64,000 nt of DNA from a virus. How positions within the stretch are numbered: position 1 is the first letter of the stretch; each line of letters starts with the position of its first letter. A program made the position numbers and the translations under genes. The stretch spans positions 1 to 64,000 of IMG/VR virus record IMGVR_UViG_3300032053_000038, one strand, 5' to 3'. Below the pieces are notes generated by a model. That model was not told the DNA's origin, made no database searches, and saw nothing but the letters and a program-made list of their open reading frames with translations. Positions 9,444 through 62,222 of the stretch are shown here, piece after piece.

Positions 9444-9944
9444 TTAATCCCACCAGGTACGAATATATTTATATATGTATTTGTTAAAAAACATAATATC
9501 TTGGTTTCTTAAATAATCTCGGTGTTTATTAATTCTGTTAAACTCGACCTTCTGTACCTCATCCTTTAAATGGGGAATGAAAGTATAACCAGTCACGGGA
9601 TCTTTTTCCATTCTATCAAAAATAGAACCGTACTTCTGAGTATAAAGATCATACTCATAGGTACAGTAGTCGTCTTTAATAAGTCTTTCTAGAATAAGCT
9701 CTACTACCTTCATTCTGCGAGCACATATCTTATTACTAGGAGAAATATCGCAGGTTTCCATGTGATCTCGCATGCGAGAAATCTTATATTTCAAAATTCT
9801 CCAGATACATATATAATCGTAGTCGTAGTCTCCCCAGAGTACTTTCCCCCACTGAAACCATCTAACTAGGAACCACCCTACTCTCCGGAAGAACCATATA
9901 ATATTACGTACACGGTTGGATCTAAAATCGAAGATCGTTTTCAT
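9444..9944 (-). CDS. hypothetical basic, tryptophan-rich protein
   Basis: A 166-aa protein very rich in Trp, Tyr and Arg in its first 60 residues (for example NIIWFFRRVGWFLVRWF), suggesting membrane or interface association. No family is recognised. A TTG at 9965 would add 7 residues, but the ATG at 9944 is more plausible; it overlaps the helicase 3' end by 23 nt, so it is translationally coupled. Confidence 0.6.
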   Translation of the reverse strand: MKTIFDFRSNRVRNIIWFFRRVGWFLVRWFQWGKVLWGDYDYDYICIWRILKYKISRMRDHMETCDISPSNKICARRMKVVELILERLIKDDYCTYEYDLYTQKYGSIFDRMEKDPVTGYTFIPHLKDEVQKVEFNRINKHRDYLRNQDIMFFNKYIYKYIRTWWD

Positions 9945-12651
9945 CTTTAATTTTTCGAATTTCAAATTCGGGTTCAGTCTTATAAATATTTAAACGGCTC
10001 TTCGCGTGCTTCCCTAGATATTTACAGTGATCATCGTAGATATCAACTATGGTCACTCTATTTTTCGTGGGTGTTTTTCTCAAAGCCCTTCCAATTAATT
10101 GTAATGAATCTACAGACGATTGATTTGCTTTGGCGTTAATAAGAACATCTAGGGAGGGGCAATTATGTGCAATTAATCCATTCGCGGATAACGAATGTGA
10201 TTCAGGTAAAGTAACGTCATAAACAAAACCATCATAATGTGAGGTTTCAATAGTCTTAATCGGTACAAAAATATATCCTTCTTCGAAGCTGTAGTGATAT
10301 TTAAATTTTCTCTTACTTGAGGAATAAACATTCATCTTGCATAAACTAGCTAGGTCACTTAAGTAAGGGCCCGATATATTAAGGCCGTAAGTGTTATTAC
10401 TCTTCATAAAAATTATCGACCCATATATACCTTCACTGAGTAGTAAGTCACGAAGCTGCATTATTAATTTTTTAGACTGAGAGACATATCTTATTGTACC
10501 GTTACTGTATTTTTTACAGAAATGGCCGTCTCCCTGTATCATACCTTTAATTAATTGACCTTTACATTCGCGGGATGCCCCGAATACAAATGAAGGAATT
10601 TTCTTATTTACAGTTCTATCAGTGAGACTGTCAAATATATCTTTAAACCAAGATCTATGAAAGCGAATTACGGTACTATTTCCTTTTATAATTTTAATAC
10701 CATTTACTCCAAGAATTCTCTTTCCTAACTGCATAATATCTTTATGATACTCTGTTTCTTTAGTGTGAAATGCAAAAGAAACTCTGCCTTTATCAGCATG
10801 CCCCTCACTAAGAAAAAATCCAAATAATCTATAAGTGTCGGGGTCTTCCAAATCCAGAAATCTATTTGTGGAGGAGTTTTCTCTCAGCCATACCTTTTCT
10901 TTGTCCGACTTAATATTAAATGTTTTTCTTTTCTGAAGCAAAGGAACAATATCTATATTTTTTTCTATGTTCTTTTTAAATATTGGTATCTTGACAGCAA
11001 CTAGATCATTTAATTTTAAATCTTTGGCAAGAATCCATTCTTTTTTATAATGTTTCCAAAACGCATCCTTACAAGAGATAATGGAACATTTATGACAAAT
11101 CGTATATGTCCCTGAATTCTTATAAATACATTCTTTAGAAGGTATCGCTAAAATGGGGTGATTCGGCGTTACTTTGAGGGGTAACATTCCAGCTGCTTTA
11201 ATACTAAAAAGATCCCCTTTATAAGGTTTTTTAATAGTATTATCAACTTTTTCAAATGTACCACTCCCACCTAAAACGTAATCGCCCTTTGAAATATTAG
11301 CAATTTCCTTCACTCCCTGGGAAGTATGTACTAATGTTTCTCCATTAAAACAATCAATTCCTTCTCCGAAGACCGTTGTAGCTATAACAACATCTATCTT
11401 TCTGTCATTTAAATCAGCTAAAATTTGTTTTCGTTCCAACGAATCTATCTGTCCACTAGCGAATCTAACTTTACCGGGAACACACTCTTTGAGCATTGCT
11501 TCTAAAAGTTTGCCGTGTTCAATTCGCGTAACTGCAACTAGTGATGTCTTTTTTGCAGCCATGGCCTTTAGTACGGACTTTATAACAAGCCTATTGCGGA
11601 ATATATTATTTACAACTTGCTGTTCATACATGTGAGGATAACCATATGCGGTGGGTCTACCATGATCAAACTGCCATAAATATATAGTTGGCTTGGATAA
11701 ATAACCTCTGACTATTAAATCGGAAGCGGAAAGATCGACGCACCTAGCTCCAGTGTGAGCATCCAAGAGTATGTCAGCGTTATCCTCTCTAAAAGGTGTT
11801 GCGCTAAATCCTACACGGTAGTAAGCTTTTCCACATTCCCGCATTACCTTATCATAGATGTTACAACTACAATGATGTGCTTCGTCCACAATGACACATC
11901 CAACACGTTCAACAAATTGTTTAATTATCTCAGGCTTAGGAATAACAGTAATGTCATCATCTATATCTTTTACTCCCTTTAAAGAGCCCCCGTAGGCTTT
12001 ATGAATTGTTTGAATCATTCCTACAGTAATTTCTTCAGGGTATACGATGCCACAACCAATCTGCCCTATTTTAACACCTAAACTGCTTTTAAAAGTTTGA
12101 ACTAGCTGATGAAATATATCTTGTTTATGAATAAGCACAAGCGTTGGAATATTTAAACGACCAATTAGTTCAGCTGCAATTAAGCTCTTCCCACCGCCGG
12201 TAGCCACCCTTATCATCCCACGCTGCTTCTTTAAGATGGCATCTACTGCTTCCAATTGGTAGTCTCTAAGACTAATACCAATTAAAGGTATTGACTTACC
12301 TAACGAGGGCTTTTGTCTGAGATCAGACACTTTTAGCTCGACACGATTGTCAGCAGCTACTTCTCTTAAGATTGAAAAGAGTCCCGTGGGAAATGTTAAA
12401 TGTCTTTTATTGAAGAGATGTTTGCGACCATCCCAATGCTTGTTCTGAAACTGTTGTGAAAAGAAAGCGCCCGGTATCTCATATGACATCCTCTGATACA
12501 GCGCCTCCCAAAACAGAACAGGTATTTCACCATTAACCGAGGTCAATACATTTTCTATATAAACGTTACATGTATATATTGGGGGTTGTGGCGGGGGCTT
12601 AGGAGGTTGAATTTCTTTCAGAATTTCCCCTAATTTTATAATCTTTCCCAT
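9922..12651 (-). CDS. SF2 DNA helicase (UvsW-like) interrupted by an intein
   Basis: A 909-aa precursor. After removal of the 397-residue intein the helicase would be 512 aa, close to T4 UvsW. Motifs seen: ATGGGKS (150-156), DEAH (256-259), SAT (283-285), the ATTVFGEGID half of motif V up to residue 433, its continuation CPSLDVLIN from C831, and motif VI QLIGRALR (851-858). UvsW-type helicases unwind R-loops and branch-migrate recombination intermediates, which fits the RecA and SSB genes nearby. It is the first minus-strand gene after the divergent region. Confidence 0.92.
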   Translation of the reverse strand: MGKIIKLGEILKEIQPPKPPPQPPIYTCNVYIENVLTSVNGEIPVLFWEALYQRMSYEIPGAFFSQQFQNKHWDGRKHLFNKRHLTFPTGLFSILREVAADNRVELKVSDLRQKPSLGKSIPLIGISLRDYQLEAVDAILKKQRGMIRVATGGGKSLIAAELIGRLNIPTLVLIHKQDIFHQLVQTFKSSLGVKIGQIGCGIVYPEEITVGMIQTIHKAYGGSLKGVKDIDDDITVIPKPEIIKQFVERVGCVIVDEAHHCSCNIYDKVMRECGKAYYRVGFSATPFREDNADILLDAHTGARCVDLSASDLIVRGYLSKPTIYLWQFDHGRPTAYGYPHMYEQQVVNNIFRNRLVIKSVLKAMAAKKTSLVAVTRIEHGKLLEAMLKECVPGKVRFASGQIDSLERKQILADLNDRKIDVVIATTVFGEGIDCFNGETLVHTSQGVKEIANISKGDYVLGGSGTFEKVDNTIKKPYKGDLFSIKAAGMLPLKVTPNHPILAIPSKECIYKNSGTYTICHKCSIISCKDAFWKHYKKEWILAKDLKLNDLVAVKIPIFKKNIEKNIDIVPLLQKRKTFNIKSDKEKVWLRENSSTNRFLDLEDPDTYRLFGFFLSEGHADKGRVSFAFHTKETEYHKDIMQLGKRILGVNGIKIIKGNSTVIRFHRSWFKDIFDSLTDRTVNKKIPSFVFGASRECKGQLIKGMIQGDGHFCKKYSNGTIRYVSQSKKLIMQLRDLLLSEGIYGSIIFMKSNNTYGLNISGPYLSDLASLCKMNVYSSSKRKFKYHYSFEEGYIFVPIKTIETSHYDGFVYDVTLPESHSLSANGLIAHNCPSLDVLINAKANQSSVDSLQLIGRALRKTPTKNRVTIVDIYDDHCKYLGKHAKSRLNIYKTEPEFEIRKIKDENDLRF
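10162..11352 (-). mobile_element. intein with LAGLIDADG homing endonuclease in helicase motif V
   Basis: A self-splicing insert of 397 aa (residues 434-830). It starts with Cys1 (CFNGETLV, block A), has a block-B-like TPNHP, and ends ANGLIAHN followed by Cys+1, so all splicing nucleophiles are present. Two LAGLIDADG-like helices (LFGFFLSEG near 610 and LIKGMIQGDG near 700) indicate a homing endonuclease. A small cysteine cluster (CHKC, with flanking Cys) lies in the N-terminal third. Insertion inside a catalytic motif is the usual intein strategy, since imprecise loss would kill the helicase. Confidence 0.93.
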
Positions 12652-51945: not shown

Positions 51946-52062
51946 CTAAACTGGTTTTAAAACTATTCCACAATTAGTGCAACATTGTAATCTGCCAATA
52001 CCAGCAGATGTTAATCTATGAAAGCCGAAAAAGCATTTGATACGTCGTAGTCGTCTTATCAT
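51946..52062 (-). CDS. 38-aa zinc-finger-like small protein
   Basis: A 38-aa basic frame starting at an ATG (52060-52062) that overlaps the TGA of the methyltransferase gene. It has C10, H15 and C27-C28-x2-C31, a compact zinc-binding pattern. The Shine-Dalgarno sequence for the long fibre gene lies within its stop region. Similar small C..H..C..C proteins occur in phages. The call rests on the motif and overlap. Confidence 0.55.
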   Translation of the reverse strand: MIRRLRRIKCFFGFHRLTSAGIGRLQCCTNCGIVLKPV

Positions 52063-52658
52063 ATTTTCATATACTTTAAGACACCACGACCTACTCTATA
52101 AATCTTTCCACCTACTAGGGAATATCCCTCTAAAATCCTATCTACTTGTCTACGATTATCTTCACCATGATATTCTAATAAAATAATAGAATATGTTAGC
52201 TTGTTAAAATCTTTTAATTTGGAAAGAATATAACCCTCAGCTCCCTCTACGTCTAATTTTAATATAGTTGTTTCAGGTATAGTCTCAGGGGCTACGGTTA
52301 TAATATCTTCAAATTCGTCGGACTGTTCCCCAATCTTATATAAGCTACATTCGCCGATGTTATTCTTTCCTTTATAAAGCCTTGTTAGTGACTTATCACC
52401 TACAGCCTCGTTTCTACAAATAACAGTAGAATTGCTTATTTGAGAAATATTTTTCGACAGTAATTCAAAGTTAGACTTTGAGGGCTCATAACAATGAATA
52501 GTACAACCTGGCCACTTCATTGAAGCCCATACAGCAAAGCTACCAACATTAGCACCTAAGTCTGTAATTGTTGGTGTTCCTTCGTATTGGATATTATATT
52601 CTCCATCTAATACTTGCTGTACATGTGGTACCATCGATTGGGGGCAAGTAATATTCAT
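52059..52658 (-). CDS. FkbM-family SAM-dependent methyltransferase
   Basis: A 199-aa methyltransferase with the SAM-binding motif ITDLGANVGSFA (31-42), the acidic loop IHCYEPSKSNFELL (about 54-67) and KLDVEGAE (about 133-140), typical of FkbM enzymes that O-methylate sugars. Overlap by one base with the glycosyltransferase suggests a two-step modification of the same glycan. The target may be the fibre repeats, the capsid decoration or a host glycan; this is inference. Confidence 0.85.
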   Translation of the reverse strand: MNITCPQSMVPHVQQVLDGEYNIQYEGTPTITDLGANVGSFAVWASMKWPGCTIHCYEPSKSNFELLSKNISQISNSTVICRNEAVGDKSLTRLYKGKNNIGECSLYKIGEQSDEFEDIITVAPETIPETTILKLDVEGAEGYILSKLKDFNKLTYSIILLEYHGEDNRRQVDRILEGYSLVGGKIYRVGRGVLKYMKI

Positions 52659-53368
52659 TATGGTCTAAAGGTATAAGTACCTGCATGTTCTAATACAACA
52701 TTGGTGTTTAGATACACAGGAATTCCATTTTCACGCGCTATACTACAGAATGCCCAATCCTCAGACTCTAAAATGTTGTTTTTAATTCTAATTGGAAAAA
52801 ATTCATATAAGGTTGATATTTCACCTGTATGATGATCCCGTTGCTGATAAGTAGCAACCTTACTCTTTAGGCGATCAAGAACGTTAATATTGATGGCCAT
52901 AAAGCCAGTAGGAACATGCATTACTTCTACTTCCCCATTCACGTCTGCGCATTTTTCCTTATATGTCTTATACTTATCTAAGGACTTATTGTACATAGTA
53001 CCCTTATCACTCTTCTCCGCAAAATATTCAAAGTGTTGAGGTAGAGCATTAAAATTCAAACATATAGGAAGGGTCTTGAGAGGATACGTACCCCCTACAA
53101 TCCCCTTATCTGAATTGCACACAGCGCACAGATCCGCGTAGGTCCAACCCATATCCGCATCAATGAATACTAACTTCTCATATCCCATTTTAAGAGCTTC
53201 ATTAGCTATAGTATTTCTTCCCCGGTTAATCAAGCTCTCATTAGTGAGTGTATAAACTACGAACTCTGCATTGTCTCTAACAAAACATCTAGTAGTTTGA
53301 ATCATGGAGATTAGATAATTTGTCATTACCATCCCCCCATAAGCCGGCGTACCTATAATTACTTTCAT
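52658..53368 (-). CDS. GT-A-type glycosyltransferase
   Basis: A 236-aa enzyme with the pattern of GT2/GT-A folds: KVIIGTPAYGGM at the N-terminus, NRGRNTIANEAL (about 48-59) and the metal-binding D70-A-D72 in FIDADMGW, then an EDWAF segment near residue 210 that may carry the catalytic acid. It would transfer a sugar from a nucleotide donor. AAAGGAAAG precedes the ATG. Coupled with the methyltransferase downstream. Confidence 0.8.
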   Translation of the reverse strand: MKVIIGTPAYGGMVMTNYLISMIQTTRCFVRDNAEFVVYTLTNESLINRGRNTIANEALKMGYEKLVFIDADMGWTYADLCAVCNSDKGIVGGTYPLKTLPICLNFNALPQHFEYFAEKSDKGTMYNKSLDKYKTYKEKCADVNGEVEVMHVPTGFMAININVLDRLKSKVATYQQRDHHTGEISTLYEFFPIRIKNNILESEDWAFCSIARENGIPVYLNTNVVLEHAGTYTFRP

Positions 53369-55419: not shown

Positions 55420-58326
55420 CTACTTCCAGAACATTGCGATGTTGTCCAACACTGAGGTCAAACTTGGAAGCACGACCTTGTATCGCATCTGCGTCCCGCT
55501 CGCCTGTCCCGAGATATCGGTCAACTCGGAGTTGGGAACCTCGTAAAACGTCGCCCCGTTATCCCGGCTCGCAAACAGTTGAAGGTCTGGTGTCCCCTCC
55601 GCTACAATGAACGCCTGCGCTGGCTCGACGGATGTAGTGTGAGCCTTGGATACGACATTGGCTGGTATGGCCGCGCTTTCCAGCGATATGGTCCCGACGT
55701 TATACATCCAGAGGATTTCGGCAGGCGTTAGGACTCGGTCAAAGACCGCCACCTCGTCGAGTGTGCCCTTGGCCTGATTGGAACCGGGGTCCCATCCCAT
55801 GATGGTGCTGAGCCCTGTCGATGGGACATAGGGTGTGGTCTCCTCGAACGTCCCGATGGACAGCCCATTCACGAAAAATTCGACATAAGAGGGCACTCCG
55901 TCGGAGTAGTGCTGAACGGCAGAGACATAGTAGAAGACCCCAGCTAGGAACAAATACGGCACATACTGGTCCGCAATCGGGTTTTTCAACAGAGATATCC
56001 CGTAAGCATTTATCTTGAAGCCGAGACCCACAGCCCCATCCTCCAACGAGGTGGTGAATATCGGGATGTCGTTGAGCGTGGCACCTCCCTTCGACGTATA
56101 ACTGGTAGGTTTGACCCAGGCGCACACGCTGAACTCCTGTGTCTCGACGGATTTTAGCGTGGATCCGAGGTTGACCCAGTTGTCCTCTCCCCCAGGAAAC
56201 TCCAATGCGGTGCCCGCCAACCCGGGGACATACGGAATCGGGCTCGCCATTGAGCCGTCAAGACCGTTCCCCGAGCTATCCACAGCTGCCAGCCCCGAGC
56301 CCTCGTCGAACTTCCAGTAACCAGCCAGCCCGGACGGCTTCCCCTGGCTCACTACTAGTTTTTTCTCCCTAGAATACTGATACCCAGTAGATAGGGCGTC
56401 GTCCATATCACCCGCGTTGCTGAAAACGTCGATGAATCCTTTCTCCAACTCGTTGTTGCCGATATTCAGGAGCGTATCGACCTTGAAGTTGGTCTTGGCG
56501 AGATTGGTATTCATCTCACGGTCGAACTCTCCTCCACCAGTCGGAGCATTGACCCACTGAACCGTCCCTTCCGCATCTACAGCGGAAAGGACCTGACCCA
56601 TTGTTGGTGCTGTGACGGTAGGAATCCTAACAGCGCCACTGATGACCACTTTTCCGTCGTGGACTCCTCCACTACTGGAACCACCTTGGATTACGACATC
56701 ACCACCTATAAAGCTGACCGTAGTCTTGACATTGTGAACGAGGATGCCTGTGGCGAAGTAGGAATGTGTGTTCTTAACCTCGAAGTTGTAGGTGGGAATC
56801 TCCTCTACCACCTTCGTGGAAGAGGCTAGGGTCTCCGTCTCACCCTTGTCATTCAGTAGCTCGTCCCCAACCTTGAGGACAGCGGCTTCCTTCCACACTC
56901 CCTTGGAGTGGAAGAGGTGGTTCGGGGTTACCTTTATCTCCCGGCCCCCACTTGTCTTGAGGAGAAGGTACTCGGGCGCTAACTCCTCGGAAGTGGTGTG
57001 GTGCTTGAGGGCCGTGACCTCCGAGGCCCGCAAGGTCTTGGTGCGATTATCATACGACTTCACCACATCGCCGACCTTGATGTCCTCAATTCCCTTGAAG
57101 GTTCCATCCGCCATGGAGATTGGAGTACCGGCAGCGAAGCAGTAGTTGTGAACTAGAACACCAGCGAAATAGGCCTCCGTTCCCTTTACCTCGAAGCTGA
57201 AGGTGGAGATAGGAGACTTGATGAGCACGGACGCCGATACTGACTCCGAGGTTCCTGCCGGAGTGAGCAAAGCATCTCCCACGGATAGGGAGTGTGCTTC
57301 CTTCCACGCACCGTTGACATAAAACAGATGTTCCGGAGTCACCTTCAGTTCGTTACCGGCGCTTGTCCTTAGTGAGATGTACTCCAGGGCGTTGTACTGG
57401 AATGTTCGTGTCACTTCAGAGTTGGTGTAGAGTCCGGTCACCACATCGAAGGACTTGATGAAATCCCCAGCCTTAACCTCCTCGATGGGCTTAGTTGAAC
57501 CATCGGCCATGGAGACTGGGGTTCCGGCGGCGAAACAGTGAAGTGTGTAGTCGGCATCACCACCCACAAGTCGCAGCGTTCCTCCAGTGTATACCGCACT
57601 GATACTTTGCGGCTGTGCCCCCTTGATGTGTCCACCAGATATCGTGTTCTGCCCACCAGTTGCGGTCACTGTCCCCGCATCAAGACCAAGCGGACGAATC
57701 TGGATGGCACCGCCGGGATTCAGCGAGTCGATGAAGGTTGTTCCAGGAGATAGAAGGTCGTTGTAGACATTGGAGATTCCATCTCCACCCACTCCGACTT
57801 CCACCAAGTAATCCCTCACGGAGTTGTCAATCATCTCCGCCGTGACCTGTGTTGCGCCTGACGGGACAGTCACCTCGGCAACGAGGATCGCACCGGAGTC
57901 CGTCACTGGAGCCTGTGCTTCCACCGTCAAGTCTCCCCTGTCAAAGTCCTTCCTCTCAAAACCGTCGGACCCGACTATGTGCTTCGGGCGAAGGACAATG
58001 TACTGCTTCCCAACCGCGACGGTCAGGTCAGCGAGTCTGTTCGGCTCGAACTGCTCCTTGTTCTTATCACTGAGGACAGTGCCATCAATCATGGCAACGT
58101 AGTCCCTGACGCGAATCTGTAGTCCGGTACCCGGAATCGTTTCACCGTTAAGATCCTTGATGTTGCGAACGACACCACCTACGACCATTGTCCCCTTGAT
58201 GGGGAAAAAACCGTCACCCAACTGATTAAGTGCGAGTTGAAGCGAATCTGCTAGCTTAAAGTGGTCCGGAACGGTAACCACCTTAGCGGAACATGAAGTA
58301 ATAGGAATTTGAATTTTTTCTGCCAT
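55420..58326 (-). CDS. virion appendage protein with two tandem Hint (intein-like) domains and a LamG-like domain
   Basis: A 968-aa protein. Residues 1-263 are beta-rich (shaft-like, with a QPQSISAVYTGGTLRLVGGD segment). Two Hint domains follow (264-394 and 396-532). Residues 533-660 are again shaft-like, and 665-870 form a LamG/concanavalin-like domain (GYWKFDEGSG, DSSGNGLDG, FSVCAWVKP, LDEVAVFDRVLTP), likely sugar-binding. The GC-rich codon use is unlike the neighbours. Autoprocessing could cleave the chain and release the Hints, or tether them. Confidence 0.88.
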   Translation of the reverse strand: MAEKIQIPITSCSAKVVTVPDHFKLADSLQLALNQLGDGFFPIKGTMVVGGVVRNIKDLNGETIPGTGLQIRVRDYVAMIDGTVLSDKNKEQFEPNRLADLTVAVGKQYIVLRPKHIVGSDGFERKDFDRGDLTVEAQAPVTDSGAILVAEVTVPSGATQVTAEMIDNSVRDYLVEVGVGGDGISNVYNDLLSPGTTFIDSLNPGGAIQIRPLGLDAGTVTATGGQNTISGGHIKGAQPQSISAVYTGGTLRLVGGDADYTLHCFAAGTPVSMADGSTKPIEEVKAGDFIKSFDVVTGLYTNSEVTRTFQYNALEYISLRTSAGNELKVTPEHLFYVNGAWKEAHSLSVGDALLTPAGTSESVSASVLIKSPISTFSFEVKGTEAYFAGVLVHNYCFAAGTPISMADGTFKGIEDIKVGDVVKSYDNRTKTLRASEVTALKHHTTSEELAPEYLLLKTSGGREIKVTPNHLFHSKGVWKEAAVLKVGDELLNDKGETETLASSTKVVEEIPTYNFEVKNTHSYFATGILVHNVKTTVSFIGGDVVIQGGSSSGGVHDGKVVISGAVRIPTVTAPTMGQVLSAVDAEGTVQWVNAPTGGGEFDREMNTNLAKTNFKVDTLLNIGNNELEKGFIDVFSNAGDMDDALSTGYQYSREKKLVVSQGKPSGLAGYWKFDEGSGLAAVDSSGNGLDGSMASPIPYVPGLAGTALEFPGGEDNWVNLGSTLKSVETQEFSVCAWVKPTSYTSKGGATLNDIPIFTTSLEDGAVGLGFKINAYGISLLKNPIADQYVPYLFLAGVFYYVSAVQHYSDGVPSYVEFFVNGLSIGTFEETTPYVPSTGLSTIMGWDPGSNQAKGTLDEVAVFDRVLTPAEILWMYNVGTISLESAAIPANVVSKAHTTSVEPAQAFIVAEGTPDLQLFASRDNGATFYEVPNSELTDISGQASGTQMRYKVVLPSLTSVLDNIAMFWK
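56731..57141 (-). other. Hint domain 2 (BIL-like, 137 aa)
   Basis: Starts C396-FAAGTP one residue after the first domain and ends ILVHN532, followed by Val, so again without a nucleophile. Block B is TPNHLF. The two copies differ at many positions, so the duplication is not very recent. Confidence 0.88.
57145..57537 (-). other. Hint domain 1 (BIL-like, 131 aa)
   Basis: Starts C264-FAAGTP and ends VLVHN394; block B has TPEHLF. The residue after the terminal Asn is Tyr, not Cys/Ser/Thr, so ligation of the flanks is not expected and cleavage is more likely, as in type-A bacterial intein-like domains. No endonuclease is present. Confidence 0.88.
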
Positions 58327-58336
58327 TATTTTTACC

Positions 58337-58939
58337 TTAGGATAGATTTACGGTAGCCGTATCAGAATGATCTAGCGACGTATTCCCGTTCTGAAGCCCT
58401 AGAAGAACGCTTCCTGCACCAGAAGCAGAAATGGTAGCTGACGCCATACCATGCGACACTGTTAGAAGGACTGGACCAACAACTCCGTTAATCTTCGGAG
58501 AAGCAGCTGTACCACCAGTAATTGCTAGCTCTATGGTAGCAGTATTATTAAATGGATCGAGCACACCAACGCCGTTTGTTACACCGACATTAACTAATGT
58601 ACCTGCATGAGGTCCAGAATAAGTATTATCTGAGCTAGGACCATTTACAGAGAAAAACTGAATAATCATATCACCTGATTGTACCCAAGTTTCAAGAGCT
58701 TCTTGAGAACTGGCTGCACTTAATTCTACGGAAGAATTAACTGTTAATAGGCCGGAATCTCTAAGATGCTTTAAATGAAAAGACTTTGCAAGAACTTCTT
58801 CGGGAGCGTAATCGAGAAGTTCTACGGCAACACCAGGCGTTAGCTGAATGGGTTTTCCTGCAAAATCCACGATGTCGCGTAGATAAACAGGATGAGCCAC
58901 TGATGCGGATAATGTTACATTGTGTGGAACTAAAGACAT
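58337..58939 (-). CDS. small appendage protein sharing an anchor domain with the next gene
   Basis: A 200-aa protein. Residues 1-75 (charged strand, then PEEVLAKSFHLKHLRDSGLL helix) resemble the first 75 residues of the 656-aa protein upstream (EDIAKSNHLARLVALGHIYV), which suggests a common attachment domain. The rest is beta-rich, with a LAITGGTAASPKI segment like the recurring GG module. AAAGGAG site. It may be a fibre or capsid appendage. Confidence 0.7.
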   Translation of the reverse strand: MSLVPHNVTLSASVAHPVYLRDIVDFAGKPIQLTPGVAVELLDYAPEEVLAKSFHLKHLRDSGLLTVNSSVELSAASSQEALETWVQSGDMIIQFFSVNGPSSDNTYSGPHAGTLVNVGVTNGVGVLDPFNNTATIELAITGGTAASPKINGVVGPVLLTVSHGMASATISASGAGSVLLGLQNGNTSLDHSDTATVNLS

Positions 58940-61253: not shown

Positions 61254-62222
61254 TTAGAGGTCAATGCGTACGATTCCCTTGGCGTATCGGATAACGAACC
61301 CGATATCTTCCCAAATAGCAAATACATCAGCAAATTTATTGGAATCCTTTAGGGTCTCTACGGAAACGTCTGTACGAACAGCTAGTACACCAAGGTAATC
61401 AGCCGGAGCTAGTACGTATACCATGTTGTCGGGGACGATAATGTCCTCTAGTACCTCTACGCCCCAAATGCTTCCAACGCGGCCAGCCTTAAGAGCCTGA
61501 TCCTGGAAGTTAGGTGCGAAGATACCTGCACCGCCGTTCATGCCAACGACGCTATTAAACAGCATTAGGTCGCGACCACGAACTGGGTTCATGAAGACCT
61601 TATTTGCGACAAGTAGCTTAGAACGAAGAGCTACGATACCCTCTACGAGAGACTCCATTGAAACCTTTGTAAGACCTACGGATGTGGTTACAACGGTAGG
61701 GTTAGCACTTGTTGCATCCGAGCCAGCGAGAGAAACAACTTCAGGCTGGTTAGTTAGATTAGACGCATACTCGAGGAGTGCGTATCCACGGCCATCTTCC
61801 TGGAACTGAATGGAAGCCTTACCGCGCTCTTGCGCACGATTGAGAATGTCAAACTTACGGAAGTTTGACTCGTTCCAACGTACCATAGGACGAACGGTAA
61901 TTGGAGACGTCTCACAACGAATACGATCGGATCTAACTTCTAGCTGCTCTGGAAGACCCTCGATAGAGATTCGAGCTGCGGGAACGTCAAGGTCCGCATC
62001 GAAGACTGCCTCTTCACCTAGGGCTAACTTATAAGTCTGATAGATCTGACGAATTCGACCTTCGAATAATAGATCGCGCTTTAGCGGCGATAACATCTGC
62101 TGTGCGATCTTCTGAAGCCCACCAGGAGAATTCATCAGCCTGGAAAGCCTTTCCTCTACCTGTGAACTGGTGAGGTTAATACCATAGACCTGCTCATCCG
62201 CAGGAGTGTTTTTCTGTTCCAT
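61254..62222 (-). CDS. major capsid protein (HK97-fold type)
   Basis: A 322-aa protein with an N-terminal helical arm (about 15-60), a spine-helix segment (LVEGIVALRSKLLVANKVFM, about 187-206), a WGVEVLEDIIVP segment and a C-terminal FVIRYAKGIVRI strand, as expected of HK97-type coats. It follows a decoration-like protein and a scaffold-like protein, the standard head order. It has a strong GGAGATAAAG site and a hairpin after it, as for a highly expressed gene. Confidence 0.85.
   Translation of the reverse strand: MEQKNTPADEQVYGINLTSSQVEERLSRLMNSPGGLQKIAQQMLSPLKRDLLFEGRIRQIYQTYKLALGEEAVFDADLDVPAARISIEGLPEQLEVRSDRIRCETSPITVRPMVRWNESNFRKFDILNRAQERGKASIQFQEDGRGYALLEYASNLTNQPEVVSLAGSDATSANPTVVTTSVGLTKVSMESLVEGIVALRSKLLVANKVFMNPVRGRDLMLFNSVVGMNGGAGIFAPNFQDQALKAGRVGSIWGVEVLEDIIVPDNMVYVLAPADYLGVLAVRTDVSVETLKDSNKFADVFAIWEDIGFVIRYAKGIVRIDL

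Follow-up and report, generated by a model that had tools for sequence, protein, structure and literature searches.

A duplicated intein-like Hint module in a putative phage fibre protein, and tandem Hint arrays in uncultured phages

Phage virions mature through the action of proteases and, in some capsids, through covalent cross-links. Bacterial intein-like domains (BILs) without a nucleophile at the +1 position mainly cleave (PMC7664689), type-A BILs sometimes splice (PMC5874633), and BIL2 of the Tetrahymena BUBL1 locus has been reported to form an isopeptide bond with a lysine ε-amine (PMC8616854). In the open-access literature on phage structural proteins with Hint domains, the only cases we met were inteins, in proteins such as terminase, helicase, dCTP deaminase and RNR. 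Here we analyse two tandem Hint domains in a fibre-like protein (Table 1) encoded within a window of 64,000 bases, which comprises bases 1-64000 of a 77,806-base IMG/VR virus record.

The two domains lie exactly where a sequence-only reading had placed them, from Cys264 to His393-Asn394 and from Cys396 to His531-Asn532, with a one-residue gap. In sequence, both retain Cys1, the block-B TPxH motif and the C-terminal His-Asn pair, and the residues that follow them, Tyr395 and Val533, are non-nucleophilic, as had been claimed. Pfam matches of the full-length protein are to PT-HINT (8.9e-29, two stretches), Intein_splicing (1.5e-15) and Laminin_G_3 (2.4e-16, residues 713-871); NCBIfam adds intein_Nterm (2.5e-15) and intein_Cterm (1.2e-4), and a phmmer search of the PDB gave the BIL structures 2lwy (1.3e-10) and 6tmm/6y75, in the range of 1e-9 to 1e-10. 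An AlphaFold2 model of residues 200-600, built from an alignment of nineteen viral two-Hint segments, has the Hint fold in both domains with a pLDDT of about 90, the shaft flanks remaining without a prediction. When this model was compared with the PDB using Foldseek, BIL2 of BUBL1 came top (TM by target 0.81 for 6y75) and CthBIL4 just behind it (2lwy, TM 0.83), ahead of class 1 inteins and hedgehog. Among predicted viral structures there were many matches, several of them to uncultured Caudovirales proteins named by domain only ("Hint domain containing"). Pfam, NCBIfam, phmmer and structural matches thus agree on the type-A BIL signature that had been proposed. The two Hints (131 and 137 residues, without LAGLIDADG) combine the Hint fold, an N-terminal Cys and a block-B TxxH with a terminal HN that does not precede Cys, Ser or Thr; they lie in a non-conserved protein, within a region that varies, the shaft module being missing from an ortholog described below, and contain no homing endonuclease. 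Canonical class 1 inteins have Cys, Ser or Thr at +1 and are inserted in essential proteins at conserved functional sites; the window Hints have Tyr395 and Val533 in this position, and their insertion site is a swappable shaft.

Table 1. Features of the tandem-Hint protein and its neighbours (window positions).
Feature	Position	Strand	Remarks
Fibre-like putative appendage protein, 968 aa	55420..58326	-	N-terminal domain, shaft, two Hints, shaft, LamG domain, C-terminal domain
N-terminal domain, residues 1-180	57787..58326	-	Common to Hint-less ortholog L146 (53% identity) and L185 (48%)
Glycine-rich shaft before Hints, residues 181-263 (GGAIQI..GGTLRL)	57538..57786	-	Missing from ortholog L146
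Hint1, residues 264-394	57145..57537	-	Cys264, TPEH, His393-Asn394; Glu at block-F His position
Tyr395	57142..57144	-	Hint1 +1; sole residue between Hint1 and Hint2
Hint2, residues 396-532	56731..57141	-	Cys396, TPNH, His531-Asn532
Val533-Lys534	56725..56730	-	Hint2 +1 and +2; no Cys/Ser/Thr at +1
Shaft resuming after Hints, residues 533-620	56467..56730	-	Matches uninterrupted shaft of neighbouring 656-aa protein
Laminin_G_3 domain, residues 713-871	55714..56190	-	Also in ortholog L146
200-aa neighbour	58337..58939	-	Syntenic in L146
Neighbouring fibre-like protein, 656 aa	58994..60964	-	Uninterrupted GG-repeat shaft (period 16-17), Hint-less
Major capsid protein	61254..62222	-	phrog_2522; relatives Bacillus phage G gp27, Tunturiibacter phage Tunturi_5 gp334

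The Hints sit between a shaft and a LamG domain, in line with the sequence-only reading. We regard the Hint-flanking region as genuine shaft, because what follows the Hints aligns (E 1e-8) with the GG-repeat shaft of the neighbouring fibre-like protein, whose repeats of 16-17 residues run on without interruption. Residues 1-180 probably form an attachment domain; an AlphaFold2 model of this domain reached a pLDDT of 40 and was set aside. A peptide-pattern search with the full protein returned a LamG match only, a pattern search with the two Hints returned terminase inteins only, and tblastn of the N-terminal part against isolates gave only weak matches to P1/P7/D6 tail fibres (E 0.1-0.3). A search of IMG/VR with the capsid protein yielded 54 relatives. 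The closest of these, L146 (capsid 85% identical), encodes a syntenic ortholog of 579 residues that matches residues 1-177 of the window protein (53%) as well as its LamG part at the C-terminus (34%). The whole middle of the protein, from about residue 184 to 617, is missing from this ortholog, Hints and shaft alike, and in L185 its place is taken by a long coiled-coil-like stretch. As these middles differ, the Hints are part of a swappable shaft module that lies between the conserved N-terminal domain and the LamG domain. The L146 ortholog has anchor and LamG domain in one continuous chain, so cutting is not required in every member of the family.

The major capsid gene is followed by two fibre-like genes and then by the tandem-Hint gene; tail-fibre genes likewise occur soon after the capsid gene in Tunturi_5. 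Tail sheath, baseplate wedge subunit and a tail-fibre protein are also encoded on the contig. With a capsid gene nearby, fibre genes as neighbours, a LamG domain and a Hint-less syntenic ortholog, synteny and domain content suggest that the tandem-Hint protein is a virion appendage. A gene for an FkbM-type methyltransferase (window 52059-53368, minus strand) and a neighbouring glycosyltransferase-like gene also lie inside the fibre gene region.

The same phage genome contains three true inteins, one in a helicase gene and two in a portal gene. The UvsW-like helicase (window 9922-12651, minus strand) has a LAGLIDADG intein ending HN|C, and the portal-like gene, encoding 1337 residues (L005:4517-8530, minus strand; contig bases 67516-71529), has two inteins with the junctions HN|C and GN|S, the first of them also with a LAGLIDADG domain. 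The +1 residues of these inteins are thus C, C and S, and neither fibre Hint has such a residue. Similar Hint-containing genes are present upstream of the capsid gene in the capsid relatives L146, L155, L196 and L197.

Identity between Hint1 and Hint2 is 51-53%, and no other Hint in our set exceeds 39% to either of them; the pair is therefore a local duplication. They are sisters in a tree of 78 Hints (support 100/98), on branches of very different length (0.84 for Hint1 vs 0.19 for Hint2). Block F reads NTHSY in Hint2 vs GTEAY in Hint1, where Glu replaces His. Given this loss and the longer branch, Hint1 may be the weaker copy, degenerate or inactive.

A survey of homologues by Hint number, which had been proposed together with the original claim, turned up not only the Hint-less ortholog but also arrays of two to seven Hints in IMG/VR. 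Using a DNA-level junction pattern with a one-residue spacer (VHN-x-CFxxGT), we obtained 23 loci and confirmed 19 of them as tandem arrays; allowing zero or two residues between the Hints added new arrays at 2 of 4 and 47 of 58 loci, respectively. The total is 60 distinct arrays of 2-7 Hints each, a number that derives from pattern searches biased towards VHN/CFxxGT and includes several architectures known from contigs alone. Array spacers are 0-17 residues long. Chance or an assembly artefact is ruled out as an explanation, since many contigs, assembled from different metagenomes, carry such arrays and the copies are 26% to 93% identical.

The arrays are found in several unrelated protein architectures. 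Many are in fibres or in baseplate-fibre connectors, and the Hints occupy linkers or shafts. Besides the LamG fibre of the window, there are glycine-rich fibres (family C), a collagen-like fibre (family D) and the DUF4815/VrlC baseplate-fibre connectors (family B), which contain zero to four Hints at one site and have Hint-less homologs in isolates. Family A, found in large phages, comprises proteins starting MKGTLFSADF.. in which the Hints extend to the last residue but one, giving an HN-K end; no virion role is evident for this family. Its members (MKGTLFSADF..LEFNTDT; L037, L018, L043, L076 and others) have two to four Hints, the last HN being followed by a single C-terminal Lys, and their N-terminal domain has no Pfam match; the neighbouring genes are unlike virion genes. 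In Caulobacter phage Cr30 (L094), the DUF4815 connector is encoded by two genes; we considered this split as a marker of the Hint cleavage site, but dropped the idea because it lies about 130 residues upstream of the site occupied by Hints in other connectors.

The one-residue pattern gave 43 matches in 84,980 bacterial and archaeal genomes (257 billion bases), none of them a tandem Hint. When five representative proteins were used as tblastn queries on 50,697 records of isolate phages, we found single inteins, polymorphic-toxin-like Hints and Hint-less homologs only, and no tandem array (for the DUF4815 query, among the best 40 of 1530 records). Viruses are not alone in having tandem Hints, since spirochaete secreted proteins have them with a 20-residue spacer. 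In one such protein (L235:1-2073, minus strand), two Hints 20 residues apart are followed by VWA domains; the first Hint starts with Ser and has no terminal HN. A spirochaete serpin (L236:1363-3096, minus strand) has a Hint directly after the serpin match, near the expected reactive loop, with Lys at +1. Ruminococcus phage NatCom_3870 (L003) carries three PT-HINT genes, polymorphic-toxin-like, upstream of an FtsK/SpoIIIE-like gene. In uncultured phages, the tandem Hint array is a widespread architecture that has apparently gone unrecognised so far.

The catalytic residues are strongly conserved. Of the 104 distinct viral tandem Hints that are complete, 103 have Cys1 (the remaining one is truncated by a contig end), and all 104 have TxxH or SxxH as well as the terminal HN; some of these positions are fixed by the search pattern itself. 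Positions independent of the pattern are equally well conserved: the Cys of the first Hint in 51/52, the HN of the last Hint in 27/27, and the block-B His in 55/55 cluster representatives, where clusters are viral Hints of <70% mutual identity. Five columns are invariant over the 55 representatives, namely Cys1, Phe2, the block-B His, the penultimate His and the Asn, and this invariance argues for chemistry under selection.

At +1, the 104 Hints have Lys in 79 cases, Arg in 21, Phe in two, and Tyr and Val in one each, but never Cys, Ser or Thr. The lone Tyr and the lone Val are those of the window, which is thus an outlier against the Lys or Arg of 100/104. By cluster, Lys or Arg at +1 is found in 52 of 55 viral clusters vs 3 of 25 bacterial PT-HINTs, whose +1 residues are diverse (Fisher p 1.7e-13, with shared ancestry ignored); on the Hint tree, this label requires 7 changes. 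In DUF4815 proteins with one to four Hints, Lys or Arg always stands ahead of a DP[LIV][AS]QTF motif (with two extra residues between in L058/L066), and four Hint-less DUF4815 isolates have other residues there. Since Lys or Arg stands beside DPLAQTF only where a Hint precedes, it travels with the Hint.

We think it probable, if by no means assured, that the window protein is a fibre shaft with a duplicated type-A BIL Hint module, and that this module processes itself by cleavage and/or amine ligation and not by canonical splicing. Once folded, the Hints would convert the peptide bond preceding Cys264 (and that preceding Cys396) into an activated thioester, and cyclisation of the asparagine would break the bond after Asn394 or Asn532. 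Because neither +1 residue is Cys, Ser or Thr, the thioester would be resolved by water or by an amine, as opposed to canonical splicing. With water, the fibre would be cut in two, an anchor and a LamG tip; with an amine, the parts would be rejoined, or one of them cross-linked to a neighbour. Self-processing is supported by the presence of Cys1, the block-B His, the penultimate His and the Asn in both Hints; counting against it are the loss of the block-F His and the longer branch in Hint1, the Tyr and Val in place of the usual Lys or Arg, and the single chain of the L146 ortholog. We infer catalytic activity, products and virion presence of the window protein. The sequence-only reading had held that such domains cleave rather than splice. 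Cleavage is indeed likely, but the statement is too strict, as some type-A BILs splice (PMC5874633) and BUBL BIL2 is reported to ligate (PMC8616854). For the window protein, with Tyr and Val at +1 and a Lys at +2 of Hint2, cleavage would be the safer prediction.

If ligation were the main outcome, a lysine ε-amine, provided by the +1 or +2 residue, a neighbouring subunit or the host surface, would attack the Hint thioester, and the resulting isopeptide bonds would cross-link or attach fibres. The top structural match reportedly forms just such a bond with lysine (PMC8616854), and Lys534 is at +2 of Hint2; the prevalence of Lys or Arg at +1 of the viral Hints relative to bacterial PT-HINTs, and their position beside DPLAQTF only after a Hint, are also suggestive. 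Arg is incapable of forming this bond, yet one in five of these Hints has it in place of Lys; the window Hints themselves have Tyr and Val, and many arrays end HN-K at the end of the protein, where ligation would add one lysine only. We regard an amine ligase as unlikely. Excision of both Hints by an alternative, traceless or near-traceless splicing route, leaving a rejoined shaft and a Hint-less fibre, would fit the shaft sequence on both flanks, the continuous shaft of the neighbouring protein and the single chain of L146, and some type-A BILs do splice without a +1 nucleophile (PMC5874633). This seems quite unlikely to us: a +1 nucleophile is present in the true inteins of the same phage but in 0/104 Hints, the arrays of family A reach the C-terminus and leave nothing to rejoin, and single-residue spacers would demand several successive reactions.

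The Hints could also be inert β-rich spacers or decoration without any chemistry. Their tandem repetition is reminiscent of decoration domains and Hint1 has lost its block-F His, but the five invariant columns in 55 divergent representatives are what selection for chemistry predicts, and we consider inert modules very improbable. Next to negligible, in our judgement, is a polymorphic-toxin-like protein in which a PT-HINT frees a C-terminal effector. PT-HINT is the best Pfam family, and bacterial toxins combining tail-fibre repeats with a HINT are known (PMC3482391); against this, the LamG domain downstream of the Hints recurs in the fibre ortholog without Hints, and the tandem-Hint gene belongs to a cluster of phage structural genes. 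We rejected this explanation, as the Pfam scan revealed no toxin family downstream of the Hints.

Beyond the self-processing shaft that we favour for the window protein, we put forward a broader proposal tentatively, and consider it doubtful as a whole: in many uncultured phages, though as yet in no isolate, the arrays may be an ATP-free covalent processing or ligation device of virions. Lys/Arg-tagged Hints, duplicated in situ to give as many as seven copies, would act through amide or isopeptide bonds, cutting fibres or baseplate connectors and cross-linking them, or anchoring them on the host surface. If this is true, phages would have one more route to maturation, through Hint arrays that process themselves in fibres and baseplate connectors. 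In IMG/VR the arrays are so frequent that a simple junction pattern detects them, and the Lys/Arg signature at +1 of most of them points to an amine chemistry that can be tested. Protein engineers, too, would find in them compact Hint domains of unusual specificity.

Among known systems, the type-A BIL CthBIL4 (2lwy) resembles the phage Hints in fold (TM 0.83), Cys1, TxxH and terminal His-Asn; type-A BILs also share the lack of a +1 nucleophile and of a homing endonuclease and the location in variable regions. Unlike type-A BILs, the phage Hints occur in tandem, with spacers of 0-17 residues, in fibre and baseplate proteins, and most of them, though not those of the window, have Lys or Arg at +1. 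BUBL BIL2 of Tetrahymena (6y75, 6tmm) is the best structural match, comes from a gene with several Hints per polyprotein, and has a reported lysine isopeptide chemistry of its own; BUBL is eukaryotic, however, with ubiquitin-like flanks, of which Pfam found none in the phage proteins scanned. The PT-HINT domains of polymorphic toxins are the best Pfam family and share the C-terminal His-Asn, but the phage protein has no downstream toxin domain, and the bacterial +1 residue is diverse (Lys or Arg in 3/25). Phage inteins (in terminase, portal, helicase and RNR) belong to the same superfamily, with three in this phage genome, and differ from the window Hints in having Cys or Ser at +1 and in interrupting essential proteins. 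The Hog domain of hedgehog uses a Cys1 thioester, as predicted for the phage Hints, and the arrays of family A are C-terminal as in hedgehog, whereas the Hints of the window are internal.
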